A stretch of 19,034 bases of DNA from Streptomyces bikiniensis (GTDB lineage: Bacteria; Actinomycetota; Actinomycetes; Streptomycetales; Streptomycetaceae). The stretch covers positions 1 to 19,034 of the forward strand of contig JNWL01000073.1 of NCBI GenBank assembly GCA_000716465.1. Direction: 5' to 3'. The first letter of the stretch is position 1. Each line of letters begins with the position of its first letter. Positions 1,802 to 18,990 of the stretch are shown here, piece by piece. The notes below the pieces were generated by a model. The model was not told the DNA's origin, did no database searches, and saw only the letters and a list, made by a program, of their open reading frames with translations. Both the position numbers and the translations under genes were made by a program.

Positions 1802-2776
1802 ATGGCCACCACCACACCAGAGCTCAAGAGGAGCCGGAGCGCCAAGAGCGCCACCCGCCCCGGAGACCGCATCTTCAGCGGCCTCTCCCGGGGCTCCGGC
1901 ATCACCCTCCTCGTCATCATGGCCGCGATCGCGGTCTTCCTCAGCTACCGCACCGTCATCGCCATCTCGAAGGACAGCACCAACTTCTTCACCACCTTCG
2001 AGTGGAACCCGGCCGGCGACCCCCCGGTCTTCGGCATCGCCGTCCTCGCCTTCGGCACCGTCGTCTCCTCGATCGTCGCGATGGTCATCGCCGTGCCGGT
2101 CGCCATCGGCATCGCGCTCTTCATCTCGCACTACGCCCCGCGCAGGCTCGCCAAGCCCCTCGCGTACGTGGTCGACCTGCTCGCCGCCGTGCCCAGCATC
2201 ATCTACGGCCTCTGGGGCGCGATCTTCCTCGTCCCCTACCTGGCCGGCCTCAACGAGTGGCTCGACCAGTACCTCGGCTGGACGTACGTCTTCGACAAGG
2301 CCAACGAAGGCCCCGCCCGCAGCCTCTTCACCGTGGGCATCCTCCTGGCGATCATGATCCTCCCGATCATCACCAACGTGACCCGCGAGGTCTTCCTCCA
2401 GGTCCCGAAGATGCACGAGGAGGCCGCCCTCGCCCTCGGCGCCACGCGCTGGGAGGTCATCCGCATGTCGGTGCTGCCCTTCGGCCGCTCCGGCATCATC
2501 TCCGCCTCCATGCTGGGCCTCGGCCGCGCGCTCGGCGAGACCATGGCCGTCGCCGTGGTCCTCTCCCCCAGCTTCCTCATCTCGGGCCACCTGCTCGACC
2601 CGGGCGGCGGCACCTTCGCCCAGAACATCGCCGCCAAGTTCAACGAGGCCAACGAGTACGGCCGGGACGCCCTCATCGCGTCCGGTCTCGTCCTCTTCGC
2701 CATCACCCTGCTCGTCAACGGCGCGGCCCGCTGGATCATCGGCCGCCGCAAGGAGTACTCGGGGGCAGCGGCATGA
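1802..2776 (+). CDS. pstC: Phosphate ABC transporter permease PstC
   Basis: One of the two membrane subunits forming the phosphate channel. The 324-aa product has about six hydrophobic helices, the first near residues 33-50. A binding-protein-dependent permease EAA loop at 206-226 (EEAALALGATRW...LP) is where the PstB ATPase docks. The ATG at 1802 follows GGAG (1792-1795) with 6-nt spacing; an upstream in-frame ATG at 1745 would add an Arg/Pro-rich stretch and lies close to the pstS-pstC hairpin, so it is less likely. Its stop overlaps the pstA start in an ATGA, consistent with translational coupling. Length and motifs fit the PstC family. Confidence 0.95.
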   Translation: MATTTPELKRSRSAKSATRPGDRIFSGLSRGSGITLLVIMAAIAVFLSYRTVIAISKDSTNFFTTFEWNPAGDPPVFGIAVLAFGTVVSSIVAMVIAVPVAIGIALFISHYAPRRLAKPLAYVVDLLAAVPSIIYGLWGAIFLVPYLAGLNEWLDQYLGWTYVFDKANEGPARSLFTVGILLAIMILPIITNVTREVFLQVPKMHEEAALALGATRWEVIRMSVLPFGRSGIISASMLGLGRALGETMAVAVVLSPSFLISGHLLDPGGGTFAQNIAAKFNEANEYGRDALIASGLVLFAITLLVNGAARWIIGRRKEYSGAAA

Positions 2777-3846
2777 GCCACGCCATTCAGGACCGTCCGC
2801 TCTCGGTGGCCCCGCGCCGCGGGACCCTCTCCCACGCCCGCCTCCCCCGCTGGACCCCGGCCGCCGTCGCCGCCGGCTCGGTCCTCGCGGGCGTCGGCAC
2901 CGGCCTCGCCGCCGGCTGGCACAGCAAGGTCCAGTGGGGCCTGATCTCGGCCCTGCTCTTCGTCCTCGTCACGTACGCCCTGACCACCAAGGTCGAGGGC
3001 AGCCGGCAGGCCAAGGACCGCGTCGCCACCAGCCTCGTCTGGGTCTGCTTCGTCCTCGCCGTCGTCCCGCTGCTCTCCCTCGCCTGGGTCACGGTCAGCA
3101 AGGGCCTCGCCGTCCTCGACGGCTACTTCCTGACCCACTCGATGAACGGCGTCCTCGACGCCGAGGCCGGCGGCGGCATCTACCACGCGCTGCTCGGCAC
3201 CGTCGAGCAGGTCGGCATCGCGACCCTGATCGCCGCCCCGATCGGCCTGCTGACCGCGGTCTACCTCGTGGAGTACGGCGGCGGGAAGCTCGCCCAGGCC
3301 GTCACCTTCTTCGTGGACGTCATGACGGGCATCCCGTCCATCGTCGCCGGCCTCTTCGTCCTCACCACCTGGAACCTGACCCTGGGATTCGGCCCCTCCG
3401 GTTTCGCCGGCGCGATGGCCCTCGCCATCCTGATGATGCCGGTCGTGGTCCGCTCCACCGAGGAGATGCTCAAGCTCGTCCCGAACGAGCTCCGCGAGGC
3501 CTCCCTCGCCCTCGGCATCCCCAAGTGGCGCACCATCCTGAAGGTGGTCCTGCCCACCGCGATCGGCGGCATCACCACGGGCGTCATGCTCGCGGTCGCC
3601 CGCATCACCGGCGAGACGGCCCCCGTCCTGCTCCTCGTGTTCGGTACGAAGCTCATCAACCCGAACCCCTTCGAAGGCGCCCAGTCCTCCCTGCCGCTCT
3701 ACGTGTACGAGCAGTACGCGGTCGGCACCGACGCCGCCGTGGCCCGCGCCTGGGCCGCCGCGCTCGTCCTGATCGCCTTCGTCATGATCCTCAACCTGGT
3801 GGCCCGCGGCATCGCCCGCTGGAAGGCCCCGAAGACCGGCCGCTGA
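2773..3846 (+). CDS. pstA: Phosphate ABC transporter permease PstA
   Basis: Second channel subunit of the phosphate importer, 357 aa. The EAA loop is at 241-261 (REASLALGIPKW...LP). The protein is longer at the N-terminus than E. coli PstA (about 296 aa): residues 28-48 and 54-70 are two extra hydrophobic segments ahead of the conserved core, suggesting eight membrane helices instead of six. I recall this as common in actinobacterial PstA. The start overlaps the pstC stop by 4 bp (ATGA), so it depends on translation of pstC. It is followed after 26 bases by pstB. There is no sign of damage. Confidence 0.95.
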   Translation: MSHAIQDRPLSVAPRRGTLSHARLPRWTPAAVAAGSVLAGVGTGLAAGWHSKVQWGLISALLFVLVTYALTTKVEGSRQAKDRVATSLVWVCFVLAVVPLLSLAWVTVSKGLAVLDGYFLTHSMNGVLDAEAGGGIYHALLGTVEQVGIATLIAAPIGLLTAVYLVEYGGGKLAQAVTFFVDVMTGIPSIVAGLFVLTTWNLTLGFGPSGFAGAMALAILMMPVVVRSTEEMLKLVPNELREASLALGIPKWRTILKVVLPTAIGGITTGVMLAVARITGETAPVLLLVFGTKLINPNPFEGAQSSLPLYVYEQYAVGTDAAVARAWAAALVLIAFVMILNLVARGIARWKAPKTGR

Positions 3847-7218: not shown

Positions 7219-7404
7219 TCAGCGGCCCCGTACGGCCCGCTCCGCCGCCACCCGCAGCACCTCGTCTATCCGGTCGGCGCTCAGCCGCTCCCCGTCGGCG
7301 GCGGAGGCGGCGATGATCAGCTCGCCGCACAGCTCTATCTCGGCGAGGGCGACGCGCTCCTGCTCTGCGGGCACGGTCGCGGTACCGGGCGGGGCCACGC
7401 GCAT
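7219..7404 (-). CDS. Conserved hypothetical protein, 61 aa
   Basis: A small acidic helical protein with no domain I can name. The sequence alternates ELCGELIIAAS with SADRIDEVLRVA, suggesting two amphipathic helices. I chose the ATG at 7402-7404 because AGGAAGAGG lies just upstream; a longer reading from 7479 adds 25 residues that look unlike coding sequence. I recall similar 60-70-aa proteins in other Streptomyces at this position. It is convergent with csoR, 29 bp away. It lies in the same direction as the lipoprotein gene upstream, and a common transcript is possible. Function unknown. Confidence 0.65.
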   Translation of the reverse strand: MRVAPPGTATVPAEQERVALAEIELCGELIIAASAADGERLSADRIDEVLRVAAERAVRGR

Positions 7405-7506
7405 CCACCTCTTCCTGCCGGCGTCGGTCTCCCAGCGGTCTCCCAGCGTAGGGACGGAGCCACGCACCGCGCATGACACGTCCGGACCATTTGCCGATGG
7501 CCCGTG

Positions 7507-9612: not shown

Positions 9613-10653
9613 CTACGTCTGCGGCGGGTGCGTGGGCAGGGCGGCGGCGCCCTCCGCGGTGACCCGGGTGGCGCCGAAGTAGTCCGGGGTGTCGATCCGG
9701 TCGAAGCGGATCACCGCGCCGGTCCGCGGCGCGTTGATCATGTAGCCGCCGCCGACGTAGATGCCGACGTGCCGGATGGCCCGCGAGTTGGTCAGGTCGT
9801 CCGAGAAGAAGACCAGGTCCCCGGGGAGCAGCTCCTCGCGCGAGGGGTGCGGCCCGGCGTTGTACTGGTCGTTGGCGACGCGCGGCAGCCGGATGCCGAC
9901 GGTGTCGTACGCGGCCTGGGACAGCCCGGAGCAGTCGAACCGGCCGTTCTGCGCGGCCGTGCCCGTGCCGCCCCAGAGGTAGAGGGTGCCGAGCTGCTGC
10001 TGCGCGAAGTGGATGGCGCCCGCGGCCTGTCGGGACGGGTCGACGCGGCCGAGGGGCCGGGCGAAGCTCTTCTCCAGGGACTTGATGATGCGGACGTAGT
10101 TCCGGGTCTCGCTGATGGGCGGCACCCCGCCGTGCCGGATCACCCGGTACGCGCCCGCGTTGTACGCGGCCAGCATGTTGCTCGCCGGGTCCCCGGGCAC
10201 GTCCTTCACGTACGTGGCGAGCTCGCAGTCGTACGAGGCGGCCGACGGGATCGCGTCCTTCGGGTCCCAGATGTCCCGGTCCCCGTCCCCGTCCCCGTCG
10301 ATGCCGTGGCTGGCCCAGGTGCCGGGGATGAACTGGGCGATGCCGCGGGCGTCGGCCGGGGAGACGGCCCGCGGGTTCCAGCCGCTCTCCTGGTAGAGCT
10401 GCGCGGCGAGCAGGGCCGGGTTGATGGCGGGGCAGAGGTTCCCCCACCGCTGCACGAGGCCCTGGTAGAGGGCCGGGACGGCGCCCTTGGCGAGCGCCAC
10501 GGTGCCGTTCTTCCCGCTGCCCGCGCCGGCGGCGAGGCCCGAGGCCGCGGAGTACGTGCCGACGACGAGCATGGCCACGAAGGCGAGGCAGACCCCGAAG
10601 ACCCCGCCGGCCACCAGCCACGCCCTGCCCGCCCTCCGGGCCGCCCTACGCAC
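9613..10653 (-). CDS. Membrane-anchored lytic transglycosylase-NlpC/P60 peptidase
   Basis: A 346-aa bifunctional peptidoglycan hydrolase. An N-terminal membrane segment or uncleaved signal lies at about 10-34. An SLT-type transglycosylase domain follows, with catalytic E89 in QLYQESGWNP, then GIAQFIPGTW, an Asp/Gly-rich DGDGDGDRD loop that probably binds calcium, and AAYNAGAY. The C-terminal NlpC/P60 domain has C241 in FDCSGLSQ, H295 in RHVGIYVG and a third polar residue N307. It should cut both glycan strands and stem peptides outside the cell. The start is GTG 10653 or TTG 10659; both share the ribosome-binding site GAGGGG. It diverges from the secretion-like cluster. Such hydrolases often accompany type IV secretion systems (VirB1-like), so a link is possible. 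Confidence 0.9.
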   Translation of the reverse strand: MRRAARRAGRAWLVAGGVFGVCLAFVAMLVVGTYSAASGLAAGAGSGKNGTVALAKGAVPALYQGLVQRWGNLCPAINPALLAAQLYQESGWNPRAVSPADARGIAQFIPGTWASHGIDGDGDGDRDIWDPKDAIPSAASYDCELATYVKDVPGDPASNMLAAYNAGAYRVIRHGGVPPISETRNYVRIIKSLEKSFARPLGRVDPSRQAAGAIHFAQQQLGTLYLWGGTGTAAQNGRFDCSGLSQAAYDTVGIRLPRVANDQYNAGPHPSREELLPGDLVFFSDDLTNSRAIRHVGIYVGGGYMINAPRTGAVIRFDRIDTPDYFGATRVTAEGAAALPTHPPQT

Positions 10654-10763
10654 CGTCAACCACCCCTCGGCCCATGGCAGTACGTCCGGGAAGCCAGTCT
10701 AGGCGGCGAAGCCCTCCGTGGGGACGGTGCGCGACGACCTCGTCACACGCGCCCTGCGCGCGC

Positions 10764-10796
10764 CGCACGTACGCCGCACGTACGCCGCCCGTACGC
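10764..10796. repeat. Three tandem 11-bp repeats
   Basis: CGCACGTACGC at 10764-10774 and 10775-10785, then CGCCCGTACGC at 10786-10796. Each holds the palindrome CGTACG, repeated once per helical turn. It lies about 110 bp upstream of the hydrolase start. A binding site array or simple slippage are both possible. Confidence 0.8.
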
Positions 10797-10899
10797 CGCC
10801 CCAAGAGTGCAACAACGACGATCATTGCCCGGAGTCACCCTCCGTGATACACAGAGTGACCATACGCTTCTTCACGCGGAAACCGGCCACACCACCGCA

Positions 10900-10926
10900 G
10901 GTCAAGACGGTCAGACCGGTCAAGTG
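10900..10926 (+). repeat. Three 9-bp-spaced GGTCAAG-like direct repeats
   Basis: GGTCAAGAC (10900-10908), GGTCAGACC (10909-10917) and GGTCAAGTG (10918-10926) are adjacent direct repeats about 130 bp ahead of the first gene of the T4SS-like cluster. A -10-like TAAAGA begins at 10940. This may be an operator of the cluster. Confidence 0.6.
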
Positions 10927-11052
10927 TGCGGGGATCGGGTAAAGAGAGCCGCCAAGCAGTCACATGCGAGCGGTTTCATCAGCGAAGATAGAGCGATGAC
11001 CCGTGCCGTCCGGGAAGGGCGGCCAACAACCCATACAGGGGCGGTGAGTTAC

Positions 11053-11361
11053 ATGTACCTGGCGGCTGAAAAGGGCGACATCACCACCATTATCGGTGGA
11101 ATCGCCCCGAACTGGGGACCCTTCGGGAGCCTGGGCAACGAGGCCAAGATCATGATCGAGGTCGTGATGGCGGTGGCCATCCTGCTCTGCCTGGGCATCG
11201 CCATCTGGGGCGCGGCCAAGCAGCGCATCGGCGCGACCGCCCTCCGCGACACGTTCAGCGCGGAACAGGGCAAGGGCCTGATCGTGGCCGGCCTGACCGG
11301 CGTCTTCATCATCGGCTCGCTGGGGACGCTCTTCACCATCGTCTACGGAATGGCGGTCTGA
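11053..11361 (+). CDS. Small two-TM membrane protein, VirB2/TrbC-like
   Basis: A 102-aa membrane protein. Two hydrophobic helices (about 33-54 and 75-99) flank a short polar loop with basic residues (AAKQRIGATALRDTF). This is the layout of VirB2/TrbC-type pilins after processing, and the gene occupies the first place in a cluster of VirB-like genes, so I infer a pilin-like or small channel subunit. There is no cleavable signal peptide, unlike classical pilins. I chose ATG 11053 (GGTGAG 6 nt upstream); GTG at 11044 would add three residues. It resembles SCO4131 of S. coelicolor from memory. A 116-bp gap separates it from the next gene. Confidence 0.75.
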   Translation: MYLAAEKGDITTIIGGIAPNWGPFGSLGNEAKIMIEVVMAVAILLCLGIAIWGAAKQRIGATALRDTFSAEQGKGLIVAGLTGVFIIGSLGTLFTIVYGMAV

Positions 11362-11477
11362 CGTCCCGTCGGACCGACCGCTCCGCGACCGCCCACCCGG
11401 ATTGTCCACCTGAACCTGATGCCCAGTCCTGTTGCAGCACGGCCGTACCCGCGAACGAGTGAGGGGGCGTACCCGGC

Positions 11478-12314
11478 ATGAGTCCCGGAGACGAGCACGA
11501 CAGCTTCGGCGGCGTGGGCGGCTCGGGCCAGACCCGGACCCGCCTGCCCGAGGGCAACAGCGGCGACGTGTACGGCGCCGGCTGCCGGCCCGTCCGCAGC
11601 TCCCGCTCCCTCGTCACGGTCGTGGGCGTGGTGGTCCTCCTCATCGGCGCCATCGCCCTCGCCAACCGCGGCGGGGGCGACCCTGCGGACCCCTCCGCCC
11701 CCCGCTCCGGCACCCCGGGCAAGGCGGCCCCCACGGCCGCCACGGGCGTCCCCCCGGTCACCACCAGGAACGGCCCGATCCCCACGGGCTACGCCCACGA
11801 CGAACAGGGGGCCCAGAGCGCGGCGACGAACTACGCGGTGGCGCTGGACTCCGAGGAAATGGTCAAGGCCGACAGCCGCCACCGGATCGTCGACACGATC
11901 TACACGCCGGAGGCGGCGAAACGGCTGAAGCCGCATCAGGACGCCGCGTACACCGCCGACCTCCTCAAGCTGATGGGGCTGGACGCGGACGGCAACGCGC
12001 CCCAGGGAAGCATCTACGTCTCACGGACCATTCCGATCGGGACCAAGGTGGAGAGCTTCGACGGAAACACCGCCAGGGTCTCCGTCTGGTGCACCGGCCT
12101 GACCGGCATGTCGGGCGCCGACTCCACCGACCCCGTGCGCACCACGTGGAAGACCCGGACCTTCGACCTCGTGTGGACGAACGGCGACTGGAAGGTCACC
12201 GGGGACACGGAGAAGAAGGGCCCCGCGCCCGTACCCGGGGACGTCGCGGTGTCCGGGACCGAGGACATCAGCAGGGCCGTCACGGAATTCGGAGGGTTCA
12301 CCTATGCCCGGTAG
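11478..12314 (+). CDS. Bitopic VirB8/TcpC-like protein
   Basis: A 278-aa protein with a Gly/Arg-rich cytoplasmic N-terminus, one membrane helix at about 44-62, a Pro/Ala/Thr-rich linker, and an extracytoplasmic domain of about 170 residues. That domain starts TGYAHDEQGAQSAATNYAVAL and ends in beta strands (FDLVWTNGDWKVTGD), a pattern typical of NTF2-like VirB8/TcpC domains in Gram-positive conjugation systems. A ribosome-binding site GAGGGGG (11461-11467) precedes ATG 11478. Its end overlaps the next gene by 11 bp. Assignment as the VirB8-like scaffold rests on topology and context, not on a diagnostic motif. It resembles SCO4130 from memory. Confidence 0.8.
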   Translation: MSPGDEHDSFGGVGGSGQTRTRLPEGNSGDVYGAGCRPVRSSRSLVTVVGVVVLLIGAIALANRGGGDPADPSAPRSGTPGKAAPTAATGVPPVTTRNGPIPTGYAHDEQGAQSAATNYAVALDSEEMVKADSRHRIVDTIYTPEAAKRLKPHQDAAYTADLLKLMGLDADGNAPQGSIYVSRTIPIGTKVESFDGNTARVSVWCTGLTGMSGADSTDPVRTTWKTRTFDLVWTNGDWKVTGDTEKKGPAPVPGDVAVSGTEDISRAVTEFGGFTYAR

Positions 12315-13656
12315 CTCTGGGACGCGTGCGCCTTCCCGTGCCCGATCCCTCGCCACTCTGGTGGCGGGCCTCCAGACCACGGCCTTCTTCTTCGCAGCCC
12401 GCGCGTCGTCCGCACCGACGCCCACACCCACGCCGTCTCCCACCGCCGAGGGCAGCGAGAAGTGCCGCTACCTCAGCGGCCACGCCAAGTACTACTGCGA
12501 GCAGGGGGAGAGAGGAGGCACGGGAAGCGGTCCGGGTACCGGTGGTGTCTCCACCGACCCCACCGCCGCCCTCGACCCCCTCACCTCCCTCTCCCGAGGC
12601 TTCGCCGACGCCGCCACCGCCACCATCGACTACCTCTCCAAGGCCGTCAAAGAGACCGCCGACGTGGACTTCACCAACATGGAGTTCCTCGGCCGCTACG
12701 CCGTCGTCTTCGCCGCCTCCACCGTCCTCACCCTCCTCCTCTGGCTCCTCGCCGTCGCCAAGCGCGCCATCCGCGGCGTCCCCCTCACCACCGCCCTCTC
12801 CGAAGCCATCGGCTTCCTCTGGCTGACGGTCCTCGCCTCCGCCTTCACCCCCCTGATCCTCTACACCGTCGTCAACGCCACCGACGCCGTCACCGAGGTC
12901 ATCGCCTCCGGCACCGGCCGGCAGACCGACGTCTTCTTCGGCAGCTTCAAGGAGGCCCTCCAGAAGGGCGACAGCATCGGCGGCGGCCCCATCATGCTGA
13001 TCATCGTGTCCCTGGTGACCGTGATCGCCGCCGGCGTCCTCTACCTGGAGCTGTTCCTCCGCGCCGTCATGCTGTACGTCGGCGCCCTCCTCGGCGTCGT
13101 CGTCTACTCCGGCCTCGTCGACAAGAACATGTGGGGCCACGTCCGCCGCTGGGCCGGCATCATGATCGCGATCATCCTGGTCAAGCCGGTCATCGTCATC
13201 GTCCTCGGCCTCGCCGGCGCCCTCTCCTCCGGCACCGGACCCGACTCCTTCTCCGCCGTCGTCTCCGGCCTCGCGATCATCCTGCTCGCCATCTTCGCCT
13301 CCGCGATGATCTACCGCTTCGTCCCCGGCTTCGGCGACGAGATCGCCGCCTCCCGCAACAACCGCCTCCACCGCGCCGGCGAGAACGCCGCCGCGGCCGT
13401 CATCTCCTCCCCCGCCTCCCTCGTCTCCCAGGGCATCAAGACCCACAGCTCCCGCGGCGACGGCGGCGGAGGCGACGGCGGCCGCTCCCCCGCCCCCCGC
13501 CCCGCCAACCAGCTCTCCGGCGGCATGGCCGCCCACAGCAGCCGCGGCGGCACCGGAGGCGGCGGCACGACACCGCCCCCCGCCCCCCGCAGCAGCAGCC
13601 CCACCGCGGGCACCCCGCACGGCAACCGCAAGAACTCTGGAGGTGCAGGGCGTTGA
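12304..13656 (+). CDS. Polytopic membrane protein, VirB6/TrbL-like
   Basis: A 450-aa inner-membrane protein. An N-terminal hydrophobic segment (about 16-37) looks like a signal peptide, followed by a Pro/Thr run and an external loop with a cysteine pair, C54 and C65 (CRYLSGHAKYYC). Six helices follow, near 132-152, 168-190, 229-250, 254-272, 284-307 and 316-337. A Gly/Ser/Pro-rich cytoplasmic tail of about 90 residues contains HSSRG twice. This matches the channel subunit VirB6/TrbL of type IV secretion. The start ATG has GGAGGG 7 nt upstream, inside the previous gene. Its TGA overlaps the TTG start of the next gene. It resembles SCO4129 from memory. Confidence 0.82.
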   Translation: MPGSSGTRAPSRARSLATLVAGLQTTAFFFAARASSAPTPTPTPSPTAEGSEKCRYLSGHAKYYCEQGERGGTGSGPGTGGVSTDPTAALDPLTSLSRGFADAATATIDYLSKAVKETADVDFTNMEFLGRYAVVFAASTVLTLLLWLLAVAKRAIRGVPLTTALSEAIGFLWLTVLASAFTPLILYTVVNATDAVTEVIASGTGRQTDVFFGSFKEALQKGDSIGGGPIMLIIVSLVTVIAAGVLYLELFLRAVMLYVGALLGVVVYSGLVDKNMWGHVRRWAGIMIAIILVKPVIVIVLGLAGALSSGTGPDSFSAVVSGLAIILLAIFASAMIYRFVPGFGDEIAASRNNRLHRAGENAAAAVISSPASLVSQGIKTHSSRGDGGGGDGGRSPAPRPANQLSGGMAAHSSRGGTGGGGTTPPPAPRSSSPTAGTPHGNRKNSGGAGR

Positions 13657-15206
13657 CGACCCAGTCCCAGCCGGTCGCGCCCCGCCGCACGTATCTCATC
13701 GGCCGCGCCCGGCCGAACGCGATCGTCGGCAAGAACCGCGAGACCGGCGAGATCGCCCTGATCATCGTCGGCGCCTTCCTCGGCATGATGAGCGGACTCC
13801 TCGTCCCCTCCCTCCCCCTGCGGATCGCCCTCCTCGCGGGCCTCCCCATGCTCGCGATCGCCGCCGTCTACCTCCCGTACAAGGGCCGCACCTTCTACAA
13901 GTGGTACGAGATCAACCGCAGCTACAAGCGCATGCTCAAGCGCGGCACCGCCTACCGCTCCGCCGTCGTCGAGGCCGGCACCCGCCTCGACGGCCGCGAG
14001 GTCGAGGTCGGCCCGCCCCCCGGCATCGGCCGCGTCGGCTGGCTCTCCGCCCCCTTCGGCCCCGACGAGATCGCCGTCCTCCTCCACGCCGACCGCCGCA
14101 CCGTCACCGCCGCCATCGAGATCGAGGGCCCCGGCGTCGGCCTGCGCGACAGCGAGGACCAGGAGGCCCTCGTCGACCGCTTCGGCACCCTCCTCAAGCA
14201 CGTCGCCAACGGCGACGGCTTCGTCACCCGCCTCCAGATGCTCGCCCGCACCCTCCCCGCCGACCCCGACGCGCACGCCAAGGACGTCGGCCAGCGCGGC
14301 GACCCGCACGCGCCCGCGTGGCTCCAGGAGTCCTACGACCAGCTCCAGTCCATGGTCTCCACCTCCAGCGAGCAGCACCGCGCCTACCTCGTCGCCTGCA
14401 TGCACTACACCCGCGAACTCGCCGCCGAGGCCAACGCCATGGCCCGCGCCGCCAAGCACGCCTCCGGCGCCCGCCGCCTCGACCGCGACGCCGGCCTCGC
14501 CGTCGTCATGGCCCGCGAGCTCACCGACATCTGCGCCCGCCTCGCCGAGGCCGACATCCGCGTCCGCCAGCCCCTCGGCCAGTCCCGGCTCGCCTCCCTC
14601 GTGCACTCCATGTACGACCCGGACCACCCCATCGACCACATCCAGGCCATGACGAAACGAAACGCCTGGCCGGCCGAGCTGGACGCGATGGAACCGACGT
14701 ACCTGCAGGCCAAGACCCGCGAGTCCTCCACCCGCGCCCCCTGGTGCCACGCCACCGCCTGGGTCAAGGAGTGGCCGATGACCCCCGTCGGCGTCAACTT
14801 CCTCGCCCCGCTCCTCGTCCACACCCCCGACGTCATCCGCACGGTCGCCGTCACCATGGACCTGGAACCCACCGAGGTCGCCATCGAACGCATGCTCACC
14901 GAGAAGACCAACGACGAGGCCGACGCCAGCCGCGCCGCCAAGATGAACCGCACGGTCGACCCGCGCGACATCGCCGCCCACGGCCGGCTCGACCAGCGGG
15001 GTGAAGATCTCGCCAGCGGCGCTGCCGGGGTCAACCTCGTCGGGTACATCACGGTGTCGTCGCGTTCGCCCGAGGCCCTCGCCCGGGACAAGCGCACGAT
15101 CAGGGCCTCGGCCGGCAAGTCGTACCTGAAACTGGAGTGGTGCGACCGCGAGCACCACCGGGCCTTTGTGAACACCTTGCCGTTCGCGACCGGCATCCGC
15201 CGCTAG
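13653..15206 (+). CDS. SCO6880-like protein: PrgI/VirB3 segment plus VirB4 N-terminal domain
   Basis: A 517-aa protein of the type annotated as SCO6880 family. Two close hydrophobic helices (about 34-53 and 56-73), the PrgI/VirB3-like part, are followed by YKGRTFYKWYEINRSY and then a long soluble region with no P-loop. That region corresponds to the N-terminal half of VirB4 ATPases; the ATPase half is the next gene. The start is TTG at 13653, overlapping the upstream TGA as TTGA, chosen because a clear GGAGG (13639-13643) sits 9 nt before it and no ATG or GTG fits. The next gene starts 20 bp after its stop. The role is inferred as the membrane anchor for the VirB4-like ATPase. It resembles SCO4128 from memory. 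Confidence 0.85.
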   Translation: MTTQSQPVAPRRTYLIGRARPNAIVGKNRETGEIALIIVGAFLGMMSGLLVPSLPLRIALLAGLPMLAIAAVYLPYKGRTFYKWYEINRSYKRMLKRGTAYRSAVVEAGTRLDGREVEVGPPPGIGRVGWLSAPFGPDEIAVLLHADRRTVTAAIEIEGPGVGLRDSEDQEALVDRFGTLLKHVANGDGFVTRLQMLARTLPADPDAHAKDVGQRGDPHAPAWLQESYDQLQSMVSTSSEQHRAYLVACMHYTRELAAEANAMARAAKHASGARRLDRDAGLAVVMARELTDICARLAEADIRVRQPLGQSRLASLVHSMYDPDHPIDHIQAMTKRNAWPAELDAMEPTYLQAKTRESSTRAPWCHATAWVKEWPMTPVGVNFLAPLLVHTPDVIRTVAVTMDLEPTEVAIERMLTEKTNDEADASRAAKMNRTVDPRDIAAHGRLDQRGEDLASGAAGVNLVGYITVSSRSPEALARDKRTIRASAGKSYLKLEWCDREHHRAFVNTLPFATGIRR

Positions 15207-15226
15207 GGCCGAAGGGGCACAGACCC

Positions 15227-16621
15227 ATGCGAGATCCGCTGTCCGTCCTCACCGAGGCCTTCACCTCCTTCCTCTTCGGGAAGGTGGAGACGACCCGCCT
15301 GCCCGTCCGCACCTCCACCGGACAGGCCCAGGCCGTCTACCTGCCGACCGCGGCCCCCGGCCTCGGCGACTCCGGCGTCATCATCGGCCGCGAGGTCTAC
15401 AGCGGCAAGGGCTACATCTACGACCCCTTCCAGCTGTACGGGCAGCAGCTCCCCGCCCCCCACTGGCTGGTCCTCGGCGAGTCCGGCAACGGCAAGTCGG
15501 CCCTGGAGAAGACGTACGTCCTCCGCCAGCTCCGCTTCCGCGACCGGCAGGTCGTCGTCCTCGACGCCCAGGGCGAGGACGGCGTCGGCGAGTGGAACCT
15601 CATCGCCCAGGAGCTGGGGATAACCCCCATCCGCCTGGACCCGATGGTCGCCAACGACGCCGGGATCCGCCTCAACCCGCTCGACCCGTCGATCACCACC
15701 ACGGGCCAGCTCGCGCTGCTCCGCACCATCATCGAGGTGGCGATGGGCCACGGCCTCGACGAGCGCTCCGGCTTCGCGCTCAAGGTCGCCCACGCGTACG
15801 TGAACAACCACGTCACCGACCGCCAGCCGATCCTCACCGACATCGTCGAGCAGCTCCGCCACCCCAAGGCCGAGTCCGCCGAGGCGATGAACGTCGCCAT
15901 AGAGGACGTACGGGCCTGGGGCCTGGACGTCGCCCTCGTCCTGGACCGCCTGGTCGACGGCGACCTGCGCGGCATGTTCGACGGCCCGACGACCGTCGGC
16001 ATCGACCTCGACGCGCCCCTGATCGTCTTCGACCTCTCCCACATCGACCGCAACTCCATCGCCATGCCGATCCTCATGGCGATCGTCGGCGTCTGGCTGG
16101 AGCACACCTGGATCCGCCCCGACCGGAAGAAGCGCATCTTCCTGGTCGAGGAGGCCTGGCACATCATCAACAGCCCGTTCGTGGCCCAGCTGTTCCAGCG
16201 CCTCCTGAAGTTCGGCCGGCGCCTCGGCCTCTCCTTCGTCGCCGTCGTCCACCACCTCTCCGACGTGGTCGACGGAGCCGCCGCGAAGGAGGCCGCGGCG
16301 ATCCTCAAGATGGCCTCGACCCGGACCATCTACGCCCAGAAGGCCGACGAGGCCCGCAACACCGGCCGGGTCCTCGGCCTGCCCCGCTGGGCGGTCGAGA
16401 TCATCCCGACCCTCACCCCCGGCATCGCGGTCTGGGACGTCAACGGCAACGTACAGGTGGTCAAACACCTCATCACCGAGAAGGAACGCCCGCTCGTCTA
16501 CACCGACCGCGCCATGACCGAGTCCTCGGTCACCGACCCGGAACTGGAATGGGAGACGGAACAGCGGGCCATGCTCATCGAGCAGCAGATGAACGGCTCC
16601 TCGCAGTCGACGGTGGCGTAG
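15227..16621 (+). CDS. VirB4-like ATPase (ATPase domain only)
   Basis: A 464-aa P-loop NTPase of the VirB4/TraC/HerA group. Walker A GESGNGKS is at 84-91, and a beta-strand VVVLDAQGEDG at 109-119 follows it. A Walker B-like strand IFLVEEAW at 304-311 has Glu where Asp is usual. A following segment, LLKFGRRLGLSFVAVVHHLSDV, is characteristic of VirB4 ATPases. Full VirB4 proteins are about 800 aa; here the N-terminal half is encoded by the preceding gene. AAGGGG precedes ATG 15227 by 9 nt. It is likely a membrane-associated ATPase energising the complex. It resembles SCO4127 from memory. Confidence 0.9.
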   Translation: MRDPLSVLTEAFTSFLFGKVETTRLPVRTSTGQAQAVYLPTAAPGLGDSGVIIGREVYSGKGYIYDPFQLYGQQLPAPHWLVLGESGNGKSALEKTYVLRQLRFRDRQVVVLDAQGEDGVGEWNLIAQELGITPIRLDPMVANDAGIRLNPLDPSITTTGQLALLRTIIEVAMGHGLDERSGFALKVAHAYVNNHVTDRQPILTDIVEQLRHPKAESAEAMNVAIEDVRAWGLDVALVLDRLVDGDLRGMFDGPTTVGIDLDAPLIVFDLSHIDRNSIAMPILMAIVGVWLEHTWIRPDRKKRIFLVEEAWHIINSPFVAQLFQRLLKFGRRLGLSFVAVVHHLSDVVDGAAAKEAAAILKMASTRTIYAQKADEARNTGRVLGLPRWAVEIIPTLTPGIAVWDVNGNVQVVKHLITEKERPLVYTDRAMTESSVTDPELEWETEQRAMLIEQQMNGSSQSTVA

Positions 16622-16672
16622 CCGGGACGGGGCCGGGCCCGGCGAGGCGGAACGGCAAGGCAGGTGGGGCGG

Positions 16673-18280
16673 ATGGATCGGACGGACGCGGCGCGGAAGG
16701 GCGGCGGAGGGATCTCGGACGGGCTGCTGCTCAGCCTGTTCGCCCTCCTCCTCTGCCTCACGGTCCTGGTGTGGACGGCGACCGGCCTGGCGGGCCTGTT
16801 CGCCCACGGAGCCTGGCCGGACGGCGTCGCCTTCACCGGCACGCCGCCGGCCCTGCGCTCCCTGGCGACGGCCCCGACGGACCTCCCGGCGGCCTGGCCG
16901 GCCACCCCGCCGGACCAACTGTCCGGGTACGGCCTCTTCTGGGGCCTCCTGATCGGCGAGGCGATGGTCCTCCTCGTCCTCGCCGTCTTCGTCCTGGGCA
17001 CGGTGACCCGCTGGCGCGCCGTCCGCGCCCACCGCAGGACGGGCGCGTACGGGACTCCCGTACGGGACGTTCCCGAGGCCGCCCGTGTACGGGAGGACCG
17101 ACCGCATCCGGTACGGGACGGGGCCCCGCCGCCCCCCGTACGGGAACACGACCGCCCCCACCCGGCGAGCGCCCCGACGCCCACCACTCCACACGAGCAC
17201 ACCAGGGAACCCGCTCCCGCCCCCCTGGCCCCCGTACGGGAGACCCCGAGGCCACCCCTCACCGCGACCGAGCCGCAGATCCCCCCGCAACCCCGCCCCG
17301 CTCCCGAACCCGCGCCCGTCCACCCGGCTCCCGCCGCCTCCGACTCCGCAGGGCCCGGCACCCTCTTCGGCCCGCCCGATGTCCGCCGCCCCGCCGCCGT
17401 CCGGGCGGTGCGGGACGCCGAGGGCCCGGTCCTCGTCGTCACCTCCGACCCCGCCGTCTGGTCGGACACCAAGGACGCGCGCGGCAAGCTCGGCCCGGTC
17501 CTCGTCTACGACCCCGGCCACCTCTGCGACACCCCGGGCCGGCTCCACTGGTCGCCCTCCGAGGGCTGCGAGGACCCGGAGACCGCCCAGGCCAGGGCCG
17601 CCGCCCTGCTCGCCCCGGTCCGTCCGCACTCCCGGCTCGACGCGGCGACCGCCGACACCGCGGAAACGCTCCTGCGCTGCTGGCTGCACGCGGCGGCCGT
17701 CGACGGGCGCCCCTTCCGGCAGGTGCACCGCTGGGCCCAGGGCTCCGACGCCCACGAACCCGTACGGATCCTCCGCAGCCACCCCAAGGCCGTCTCCGGC
17801 CTGGCGGGCGTGCTCGAATCCGCCCTGACCGCACACCCCGAAAGCCGCCGTCTGGCACAGGAACTGACGGCCCGTGCGTTCTCGGCGTTCTCCACGGTCC
17901 ACATCAGGGAGGCGTGCACCCCGAATCGAACGGATTCGCTGGCACTGGCATCTTTCCTGCCCGAAGGGGGCACCCTCTACGTGGTGGGTGAATCGATCGA
18001 GGACCCCCGCACCCACCCCGGCGCGATGCCGCTCCTGACGGCGCTCGCCGCAAGCGTGGTCGAGCGCGGCCGCCGCATGGCCGCACGGTCATCCGACGGT
18101 CGGCTCGACCCACCACTCACCCTGGTGCTCGACGACGTCGCCGCCGTCGCCCCGTTTCCTGCGCTCCCGGCCCTCCTGGCGGAGGGCGAGACCCGGGGCC
18201 TGCCCACCCTGGCCCTGATGCGCTCCCGCGAACAGGCCAGAACCCGCTGGCCGAACGACGCACTGACCCCCAGGTCCTGA
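16673..18280 (+). CDS. VirD4/TraG-like membrane protein lacking Walker A
   Basis: A 535-aa protein with two membrane helices (about 18-40 and 88-110), a Pro-rich cytoplasmic linker of about 110 residues containing repeated PVRE/PVRD-type motifs, and a C-terminal domain. That domain follows the type IV coupling-protein pattern after its P-loop: GPVLVVTSDPAVWSDTKDARGKLGPVLVYDPG, then WSPSEGCEDPETAQARAAAL, and a Walker B-like TLVLDDVAAVAP with SREQARTRWP near the end. No GxxxxGK[ST] is present anywhere, so ATP hydrolysis is unlikely. The start is ATG 16673 or GTG 16664. It is last in the cluster and ends 7 bp from a convergent acetyltransferase pseudogene. It resembles SCO4126 from memory. Confidence 0.82.
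   Translation: MDRTDAARKGGGGISDGLLLSLFALLLCLTVLVWTATGLAGLFAHGAWPDGVAFTGTPPALRSLATAPTDLPAAWPATPPDQLSGYGLFWGLLIGEAMVLLVLAVFVLGTVTRWRAVRAHRRTGAYGTPVRDVPEAARVREDRPHPVRDGAPPPPVREHDRPHPASAPTPTTPHEHTREPAPAPLAPVRETPRPPLTATEPQIPPQPRPAPEPAPVHPAPAASDSAGPGTLFGPPDVRRPAAVRAVRDAEGPVLVVTSDPAVWSDTKDARGKLGPVLVYDPGHLCDTPGRLHWSPSEGCEDPETAQARAAALLAPVRPHSRLDAATADTAETLLRCWLHAAAVDGRPFRQVHRWAQGSDAHEPVRILRSHPKAVSGLAGVLESALTAHPESRRLAQELTARAFSAFSTVHIREACTPNRTDSLALASFLPEGGTLYVVGESIEDPRTHPGAMPLLTALAASVVERGRRMAARSSDGRLDPPLTLVLDDVAAVAPFPALPALLAEGETRGLPTLALMRSREQARTRWPNDALTPRS
17047..17241 (+). repeat. Dispersed GTACGGGA repeats inside the VirD4-like gene
   Basis: GTACGGGA occurs at 17047, 17060, 17087, 17111, 17138 and 17234. 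Most copies encode V-R-E or V-R-D in the Pro-rich linker. Some are part of the palindrome CCCGTACGGG. They may reflect repeat expansion or a short linear motif. Confidence 0.75.
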
Positions 18281-18287
18281 CGGGACC

Positions 18288-18863
18288 TCACCTACCCCCC
18301 GAACCCACCGGCCGCCGCAGCTCGTACTCCACCTCCTCCGCCGAGTCGCTCCCCGGCACCGCGATCCGCTCGCCCGTCGGCGCGAACCCGAACCGCCGGT
18401 AGAAGGCCGCCGCCCGCGCGTTCTCCTCGTGCACGTACAGCCGCACCCGCTCGACCACCGGGTCCGTCAGCGATCAGGACCACTCCACGCCCGCCCGGAA
18501 CAGCGCGTCGATCACGCCCGTCCCGCGCGCCTCGGGACGCACGTACACCCCCACGACGTGCGTCTGGTCGGCCTTCGCCGCCTCGCCGAACCCCGCCTCG
18601 TCCGAGGGGCGCTCCACGAGCAGCGTGATCGTGCCCGCCCAGGAGCCGTCCGGCCTCTCGGCCACGAACTGCCGTGCCTTCCCGCCACCGCTCGCGGACG
18701 ACCTCTCCGCCCACTCCCGCCAGGAGGAATCGGGCCGCTCTACGGCCGCCTCGTACGTGTCGAGGAACGCGAGGTGCGCGACCGGGTCCCGGAGGGCGGC
18801 GAGACGGATCTCGCGCGCCTTCTCCCACTCGTCGGCGCGGGGGGTGCGTATCAGATAGTCCAT
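18288..18863 (-). pseudogene. GNAT acetyltransferase interrupted by an in-frame TGA
   Basis: Read from ATG 18863, the frame encodes 129 residues of a GNAT N-acetyltransferase, including the acetyl-CoA-binding motif A VVGVYVRPEARGTG, then stops at TGA (18476-18474). The same frame continues without a break for 61 more residues to TGA 18290-18288. These include the family's C-terminal motif VRLYVHEENARAAAFYRRFGF. The codons around the stop read GVEWS-stop-SL; W-S-W-S is expected, so a single TGG to TGA change explains it. The substrate is unknown. It is either a recent pseudogene or a sequencing error. A truncated product would lack the last strands and helix of the fold. Confidence 0.85.
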
Positions 18864-18870
18864 GGACCCG

Positions 18871-18900
18871 ATCCTGACGACGGGCGCACGCCCCTGACAA
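18871..18900 (-). promoter_or_regulatory. Candidate promoter of GNAT gene, possibly leaderless
   Basis: On the minus strand, TTGTCA (18900 to 18895) and CAGGAT (18876 to 18871) are 18 bp apart. Transcription starting 6-8 bases after the -10 would fall at or next to the ATG at 18863, which would make a leaderless mRNA. An AGGA within the -10 could alternatively be a ribosome-binding site for a longer transcript. Confidence 0.4.
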
Positions 18901-18948
18901 GGCATTTCCCGGGGCCCCACCGCCGGCGCCTCGCCCCCCGAACGCAGA

Positions 18949-18978
18949 AAAGCCCCGCACCAGGAGGTGCGGGGCTTT
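18949..18978 (-). terminator. Rho-independent terminator of the rRNA operon
   Basis: A perfect 13-bp stem, AAAGCCCCGCACC (18949-18961) with GGTGCGGGGCTTT (18966-18978), has a 4-nt loop. On the minus strand it ends in TTTT followed by C. It lies 12 nt past the 3' end of the 5S rRNA gene and separates the rrn operon from the GNAT gene. Confidence 0.93.
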
Positions 18979-18990
18979 CCCACAATGATT

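Follow-up and report, generated by a model that had tools for sequence, protein, structure and literature searches.

The cmd locus and the adjoining hydrolase gene tgdA

The 19,034-nucleotide stretch of Streptomyces bikiniensis DNA analyzed here (the window; C73:1-19034 of its genome) carries six consecutive plus-strand genes between positions 11053 and 18280. A first-pass annotation made from the letters had likened them to a conjugation machine and related them to the cmd genes of Streptomyces; their sizes and membrane topology were as it had described. The genes follow each other as cmdF-E-D-C-B-A, with short gaps or overlaps, and are counterparts of SCO4131 down to SCO4126. Order and strand are those of the Streptomyces coelicolor cmd locus, as are the adjoining transglycosylase and pst genes (SCO4132 is tgdA and SCO4142 is pstS in that species; PMC6585502). 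Papers are cited here by PMC number. The two loci also share gene content, topology and lysine 90 of CmdB, and they are not different systems. Judged by gene content, gene order and this key CmdB residue, the window locus is the counterpart of Streptomyces cmdABCDEF (SCO4126-4131). A 2009 paper described the cmd locus, its sporulation and actinorhodin phenotypes and a possible type IV-like channel, in agreement with the identity, the phenotypes and the similarity to plasmid SLP2 given in the first-pass annotation (PMC2782261).

Beyond the six genes first delimited there is a linked divergent gene, which had been overlooked. This gene, the counterpart of SCO4132 (9613..10659, minus strand, TTG start), encodes a TgdA-like protein of 348 amino acids (aa) with an N-terminal hydrophobic segment followed by SLT and NlpC/P60 domains (Pfam NLPC_P60, 6.5e-23; SLT, 7.2e-16), that is, a VirB1-like wall hydrolase. 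The protein contains QESGWNP at residue 90, DCSGL at 242 and RHVGIY at 296, which we take to be the usual active-site motifs of such enzymes. The 393 bases between the divergent starts of tgdA and cmdF (10660..11052) may hold a shared regulatory region.

The hydrolase gene accompanies the cmd genes widely. It was found upstream and divergent in 48/77 Streptomyces loci, the other 29 having no match in an available flank of less than 6 kb, and in all six loci with longer flanks (L195-L200); the distance between tgdA and cmdF reaches about 6 kb in some Streptomyces. It was also present in 13 of the 15 loci from other genera and in 9/11 loci of family f44, where both misses were at contig edges. 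The two misses in other genera were one contig edge and genome G015, where about 128 kb separate cmdF and its neighbor tgdA from cmdE-A (contig C20; L166, L194, L245). A second genome of that genus, G027, keeps the normal order, and the split in G015 is either a rearrangement or a misassembly. In four of five Streptomycetaceae plasmid regions related to cmd (see below) a divergent M23 peptidase is annotated at the position of tgdA, in place of the SLT/NlpC-P60 protein of cmd, and the fifth has an unnamed gene there; a SLP2-like plasmid has an adjacent transglycosylase/C40 protein. Actinorhodin is raised in tgdA mutants, and its levels equal those of cmdBCDEF mutants (PMC6585502). Taken together, these observations indicate that the tgdA hydrolase belongs to the cmd module. 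SCO5677 has the same antibiotic phenotype as cmd and tgdA (PMC6585502) and could belong to the same pathway, perhaps as a separate ATPase of the machine; a literature search on it yielded that one paper.

The motor, the membrane parts and the decay of CmdA

The reading of the fifth gene, cmdB (15227..16621, plus strand, 464 aa), as a VirB4 ATPase was borne out. The protein matched AAA_10 in Pfam (1.3e-13), the C-terminal halves of VirB4/TraC models and the VirB4 domain 4ag5 in the PDB (5.5e-6). Its Walker A motif GESGNGKS (residues 84-91, 15476..15499, plus strand) and a Walker B-like IFLVEEAW were kept in 81/81 loci. By sequence, CmdB is an ATPase of the VirB4 type whose Walker motifs are intact. 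The Walker A lysine is residue 90, one of the residues mutated in S. coelicolor CmdB; mutants in K90 and in K404 failed to complement there, the former being possibly unstable according to the authors (PMC2782261). The window protein has no lysine at 404, where the numbering may differ. In four genomes the CmdB match was split in two. For G227 and G021 both pieces give an open frame of equal size, with a short insert near residue 195, while in G208 and G256 the frames differ between the pieces, suggesting a frameshift or a sequencing error. The other match of CmdB in the window genome was short (36% over residues 360-431; L002, G000:C17, ~30424-30639), and the open reading frame (ORF) adjoining it may encode a type VII secretion component.

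The remaining membrane proteins were assigned with varying firmness. The second gene, cmdE (11478..12314, plus strand), encodes a protein of 278 aa with one membrane segment and an NTF2-like domain; its identification as VirB8 was upheld by modelling, which predicts a VirB8-type fold, and Foldseek alone puts the plastid protein ARC6 first for this model. CmdD (12304..13656, plus strand, 450 aa) had been compared to VirB6. It has six predicted membrane segments and a match to SCO6881_fam (1.2e-5), and the TrbL_4 match was sub-threshold (0.0056) and found in 3/13 rows; CmdD may tentatively be called VirB6/TrbL-like. The assignments of cmdC to PrgI plus the N-terminal part of VirB4 and of cmdF to VirB2 found no accepted profile match. 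CmdC (13653..15206, plus strand, 517 aa) matched NF042935, the SCO6880 family, at 1.6e-53 and had no Pfam match to PrgI or VirB4. We infer that it is the membrane-anchored N-terminal half of a split VirB3/VirB4, so that CmdC and CmdB would form one unit. CmdF (11053..11361, plus strand, 102 aa, two membrane segments) had no accepted Pfam match and shares 38-43% identity with the protein encoded first in each of five Streptomycetaceae plasmid regions; its topology and position suggest a VirB2-like subunit. Both genes are conserved, with median dN/dS values of 0.075 for cmdF and 0.153 for cmdC (all dN/dS values are plain Nei-Gojobori medians without codon-bias correction).

The sixth gene, cmdA (16664..18280, plus strand), encodes 538 aa comprising two N-terminal membrane segments, a proline-rich linker and a shortened VirD4-derived C-terminal part. 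It had been called VirD4, which holds for its descent but not in the sense of a normal coupling ATPase. A profile of 30 CmdA sequences matched a profile built from nine plasmid coupling proteins (E 8.6e-53, probability 100, 471 columns aligned); the nine all match T4SS-DNA_transf and TraG-D_C, and their profile matches TrwB at 1.4e-16. By these profile comparisons CmdA descends from VirD4. The AlphaFold2 model of CmdA was poor (mean pLDDT 66.9, pTM 0.37; TM-scores to TrwB and Cag-beta 0.17-0.27), and Foldseek returned 29 matches at E up to 0.001, all of them TrwB or Cag-beta chains; because of this the model backs the VirD4 origin, and that only.

The site of CmdA aligned with the VirD4 P-loop reads GPPDVRR (residues 236-242, 17369..17389, plus strand), which is not a P-loop, compared with APPREGKT or similar in the mobile-type rows. 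At the aligned site GK[ST] occurs in none of the 77 chromosomal CmdA sequences compared. These comprise the window protein, 63 Streptomyces loci whose product has 470 aa or more, 12 further sequences (11 other genera and G227) and one genome of family f43. By contrast, the P-loop is kept in 10/10 mobile-type relatives of the same alignment (nine GKT, one GKG). One locus, L060, does have a GK pattern, but in the CmdA linker. A separate P-loop check comprised 71 complete frames; four were short (186-316 aa) and little informative. The C-terminus is reduced as well: 4-75 residues follow the VirD4-matched part in 12 chromosomal CmdA frames, versus 101-147 in the ten mobile-type proteins. A translated search of plasmids with CmdA gave 61 records; 40 of them were listed, and most of these align from residue 254 on, just past the P-loop site. 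Since the canonical P-loop is absent, CmdA is not a normal coupling ATPase, and a working VirD4 was rejected for Streptomyces. When one plasmid protein was used as the query for a P-loop relative elsewhere in the window genome, CmdA was the sole match.

Outside Streptomyces the loss goes further. Only the membrane part of CmdA follows cmdB in G001 (g2) and G004 (g5) (L175, L177), and G019 and G030 (g5) have short CmdA frames like these. No CmdA follows cmdB in G013 (g13), in G014 (g14) or in 11/11 loci of family f44. Where CmdA is shortened or missing, cmdB, cmdC, cmdD and cmdE stay, as do cmdF and tgdA where the contig reaches them. A whole-genome search of 16 chosen genomes left six without a CmdA-family match (G013, G014, G072, G100, G178, G652) and a seventh, G136, with a weak partial match only. 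The decay of CmdA, as read from these sequences, is stepwise across lineages. In Streptomyces the median dN/dS was 0.277 for the VirD4-like part, 0.428 for the membrane part and 1.118 for the linker (the last from 77 pairs), and the VirD4-like remnant looks like a retained pseudo-ATPase rather than debris.

Range and origin of the locus

CmdB was found in 296/297 genomes of the family and in all 16 genera, the four matches in two pieces included, and in 146/147 genomes of the order, where 13 outside the family were at 81-85%. The single miss in both counts, G217, is probably an assembly gap because its cmdC reaches to less than 50 bases from the contig end. In a sample of the class 173/394 genomes had a CmdB match; outside the order, among the matches listed, the best was at 78% (G303) and the next at 39%. 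The G303 genome is in 970 contigs and has 6% contamination, and its match sits on a contig of 10.7 kb, so no range claim is drawn from it, and the sequence was kept in the tree. In that tree of 53 CmdB rows, the 36 chromosomal sequences form one side of a branch (99/97) that adjoins a clade of seven Streptomycetaceae plasmid-type systems (join 94/87), the deep joins being unsure because of long branches. The locus is found at 0.42-0.55 of the sequence in 11 large records, i.e., mid-chromosome, and its G+C content is close to that of the whole window (71.4% for 10700-18280 versus 71.3%). The earlier statements that the base composition is normal and that the cluster is chromosomal and not a recent mobile element are in line with these results. 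By distribution, tree and position the cmd locus is an old chromosomal resident that is probably inherited vertically.

The closest relatives are plasmid transfer regions of the same gene order. Five of them, on large Streptomycetaceae plasmids (L084, L183, L184, L189, L190), are colinear with cmd as F-E-x-D-C-B-VirD4, their CmdB being 46-49% and their CmdC about 40% identical. Unlike cmd, they have a P-loop coupling protein with a full C-terminus and an extra gene between E and D. Three transfer proteins of SLP2 are 22-33% identical to Cmd proteins (published figures). The SLP2 genes are needed for plasmid transfer, whereas deletion of the chromosomal cmd cluster left the transfer of a SLP2-derived plasmid unaffected (PMC2782261). 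The simplest account of the origin of the locus is that a plasmid-type transfer region was domesticated once, plasmid to chromosome being the presumed direction, and the likeness of cmd to conjugation is one of origin.

As the first-pass annotation had stated, no relaxase adjoins the locus: none was found on the window contig, and PF03432 had no match in the whole genome. TrwC-family pieces (PF08751) lie on other contigs of the same genome (C75, C76, C89). The absence of a relaxase had been presented as a special feature. It was rejected as a distinguishing mark, since the non-mobilizable call also applies to 119/202 plasmid records that carry a relative of CmdB. Nor was an integrase found among the 16 window ORFs scanned with Pfam, again as stated before (the ORFs at ~2773-3846, 7219-7479 and 18291-18983 lay outside the scan).

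Function of the locus and its surroundings

In S. coelicolor the cmd genes are co-transcribed, the cmdB transcript rises with aerial growth and CmdB is found in the membrane fraction. Mutants in cmdB or in the whole cluster show abnormal branching, poor septation, chromosome mis-segregation and late aerial mycelium, with 8% and 6% anucleate spores in the cmdB and cmdA-F deletions versus 0.1%; deletion of cmdA alone produced no visible change in sporulation, and cmd mutant phenotypes are reported in three species (PMC2782261). The effect on antibiotic production was read as one of cell envelope homeostasis by the authors of PMC6585502. We hypothesize, with a probability of roughly 0.55, that tgdA-cmdFEDCBA is a domesticated type IV secretion core of a monoderm that has given up VirD4-type DNA coupling and acts as a wall-spanning envelope machine in aerial development. 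Compared with a monoderm conjugation system, VirB4, a VirB8-type protein (modelled) and a VirB1-type protein are present, and a P-loop VirD4 and a linked relaxase are absent. During aerial growth CmdB would power the assembly and action of the membrane complex, CmdE would position TgdA, and TgdA would open the thick wall locally. CmdF and CmdD would make a conduit or short filament, with CmdD as the VirB6-like channel part, and the machine would move or build something other than conjugation DNA in the hyphal envelope. Lacking both a relaxase and a functional coupling protein, it would not load DNA as in conjugation. Failure of this envelope machine would account for the uneven chromosomes and the misplaced septa seen in the mutants.

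This hypothesis draws on the loss of the P-loop in chromosomal but not in mobile CmdA, the invariant Walker motifs of CmdB, the modelled fold of CmdE and the linked hydrolase. The near-universal presence in the order, the single clade and the mid-chromosome position speak for it too, as do the published expression of cmdB, the need for K90 and the cmdA deletion, whose lack of a visible sporulation change fits the prediction that CmdA is not a motor. Several points weigh against it. No cargo, pilus, complex or septal localization is known, and Pfam and PDB sequence searches gave no accepted assignment for CmdF and CmdC. The VirD4-like part of CmdA is constrained and therefore has some role. The near P-loop and the full C-terminus are both lost in CmdA of Streptomyces and of other Streptomycetaceae genera, but in the f43 genome (L201) the site reads GPARSGKA, a near P-loop, and the C-terminus is mostly retained. 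An unlinked CmdA-family protein occurs in three of the four f44 genomes searched (G645, G647, G651), with a P-loop in G645 and G651, so a coupling protein acting in trans is possible there. Lastly, the chromosome segregation defects (PMC2782261) would be explained directly by a DNA pump.

Known type IV systems offer partial parallels. ComB, Ptl, Brucella VirB and Bartonella Trw are type IV cores without a coupling protein. Where CmdA is missing, the gene content of cmd would fit such systems, within the limits set by the unlinked CmdA-family proteins of f44 genomes. All four are Gram-negative (PMC12857230), whereas cmd belongs to a monoderm and in Streptomyces CmdA persists in a decayed form. 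The system of Saccharibacteria (Patescibacteria) is, like cmd, resident in a monoderm and needed by its own cell, and it has VirB1/B3/B4/B6/B8 and a VirB2-like protein; in contrast to cmd, its parts include a VirD4-like protein, and its role is in growth on a host bacterium (PMC12857230). Tentatively, it is possible to go a step further and regard this order-wide resident core without VirD4 coupling as a developmental organelle, a VirB4-driven, wall-penetrating conduit or VirB2-type filament that is installed with TgdA in aerial hyphae and passes non-DNA cargo across the envelope or the sporulation septa. Such an organelle would be a type IV system of a monoderm that works in the absence of a coupling protein.

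The explanation closest to the envelope machine is a scaffold for wall remodelling without transport, in which the sole task of the Cmd complex in aerial hyphae is to place and control TgdA and possibly further wall enzymes. The linkage of tgdA and the common actinorhodin phenotype suit it, as do the aberrant branching and septation of the mutants (PMC2782261) and the envelope homeostasis reading (PMC6585502). However, a conserved VirB4 motor and VirB6/VirB2-like membrane parts exceed the needs of a scaffold, and the CmdB K90 mutant did not complement (PMC2782261), though it was possibly unstable; we regard the scaffold as doubtful. A septal DNA pump, much as Xie et al. 2009 suggested (PMC2782261), would have CmdB as its DNA motor and work beside FtsK to move trapped chromosomes through sporulation septa as they close. 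It is unlikely. The anucleate spores and the place of CmdB among VirB4/HerA-type ATPases agree with it, but none of the six Cmd proteins had a Pfam match to FtsK_SpoIIIE at E up to 1, the DNA-coupling protein is decayed or gone, its deletion had no visible effect on sporulation, and abnormal branching and late aerial mycelium are left unexplained (PMC2782261).

Still lower stands the idea that the locus is a conjugative or a defective integrative element, whether active or in decay, that contributes nothing to its host. The kinship with plasmid transfer regions is in its favor, and a defective integrative and conjugative element (ICE) that may be the cmd locus was reported from mid-chromosome in every strain of a Streptomyces population (PMC9513070). 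Nevertheless, the distribution among relatives is not patchy as it would be for an ICE, the composition is that of the window, cmdF and cmdC are conserved, mutants have phenotypes in three species, and SLP2-derived plasmid transfer was unaffected (PMC2782261); distribution, position, composition and published results disfavor a mobile element, and nothing found in this analysis backs DNA transfer to other cells. Just as improbable is a DNA uptake channel such as ComB of Helicobacter pylori. ComB lacks VirD4 and VirB11 and has ComB4 as its sole ATPase (PMC12857230), which leaves it with the same kind of motor set as cmd loci without CmdA, but no competence gene was seen among the flanking ORFs scanned with Pfam, and the expression and phenotype of cmd are developmental (PMC2782261).

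The cmd locus, its phenotypes and the possible type IV-like channel were already in print; the decay of CmdA, the order-wide range and tgdA as the hydrolase of the machine are new here. A literature search, with subscription papers mostly outside its reach, returned no published statement of these three. If the envelope machine is real, this order-wide resident, whose coupling motor is seen to decay from genus to genus, would be a conjugation machine that became a developmental part. The phenotype of 2009 would gain a testable parts list, with tgdA joined to the same machine and CmdA predicted not to be a motor.

Upstream of the locus, Pfam identified PstS-, permease- and PstB-type proteins, a PHO4 transporter with DUF47, a metal-sensitive repressor, PAP2 and the transglycosylase/NlpC-P60 protein. 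An rRNA operon had been placed on one flank. None scored above the Rfam threshold inside the window. Each of three relatives put through an Rfam scan (L031, L062, L066) has a 5S-23S-16S operon beyond cmdA, encoded on the other strand, so that this placement fits. Downstream of cmdA, an ORF on the minus strand (~18291-18860), which we take to resemble a GNAT acetyltransferase, is interrupted by an in-frame stop at ~18474.

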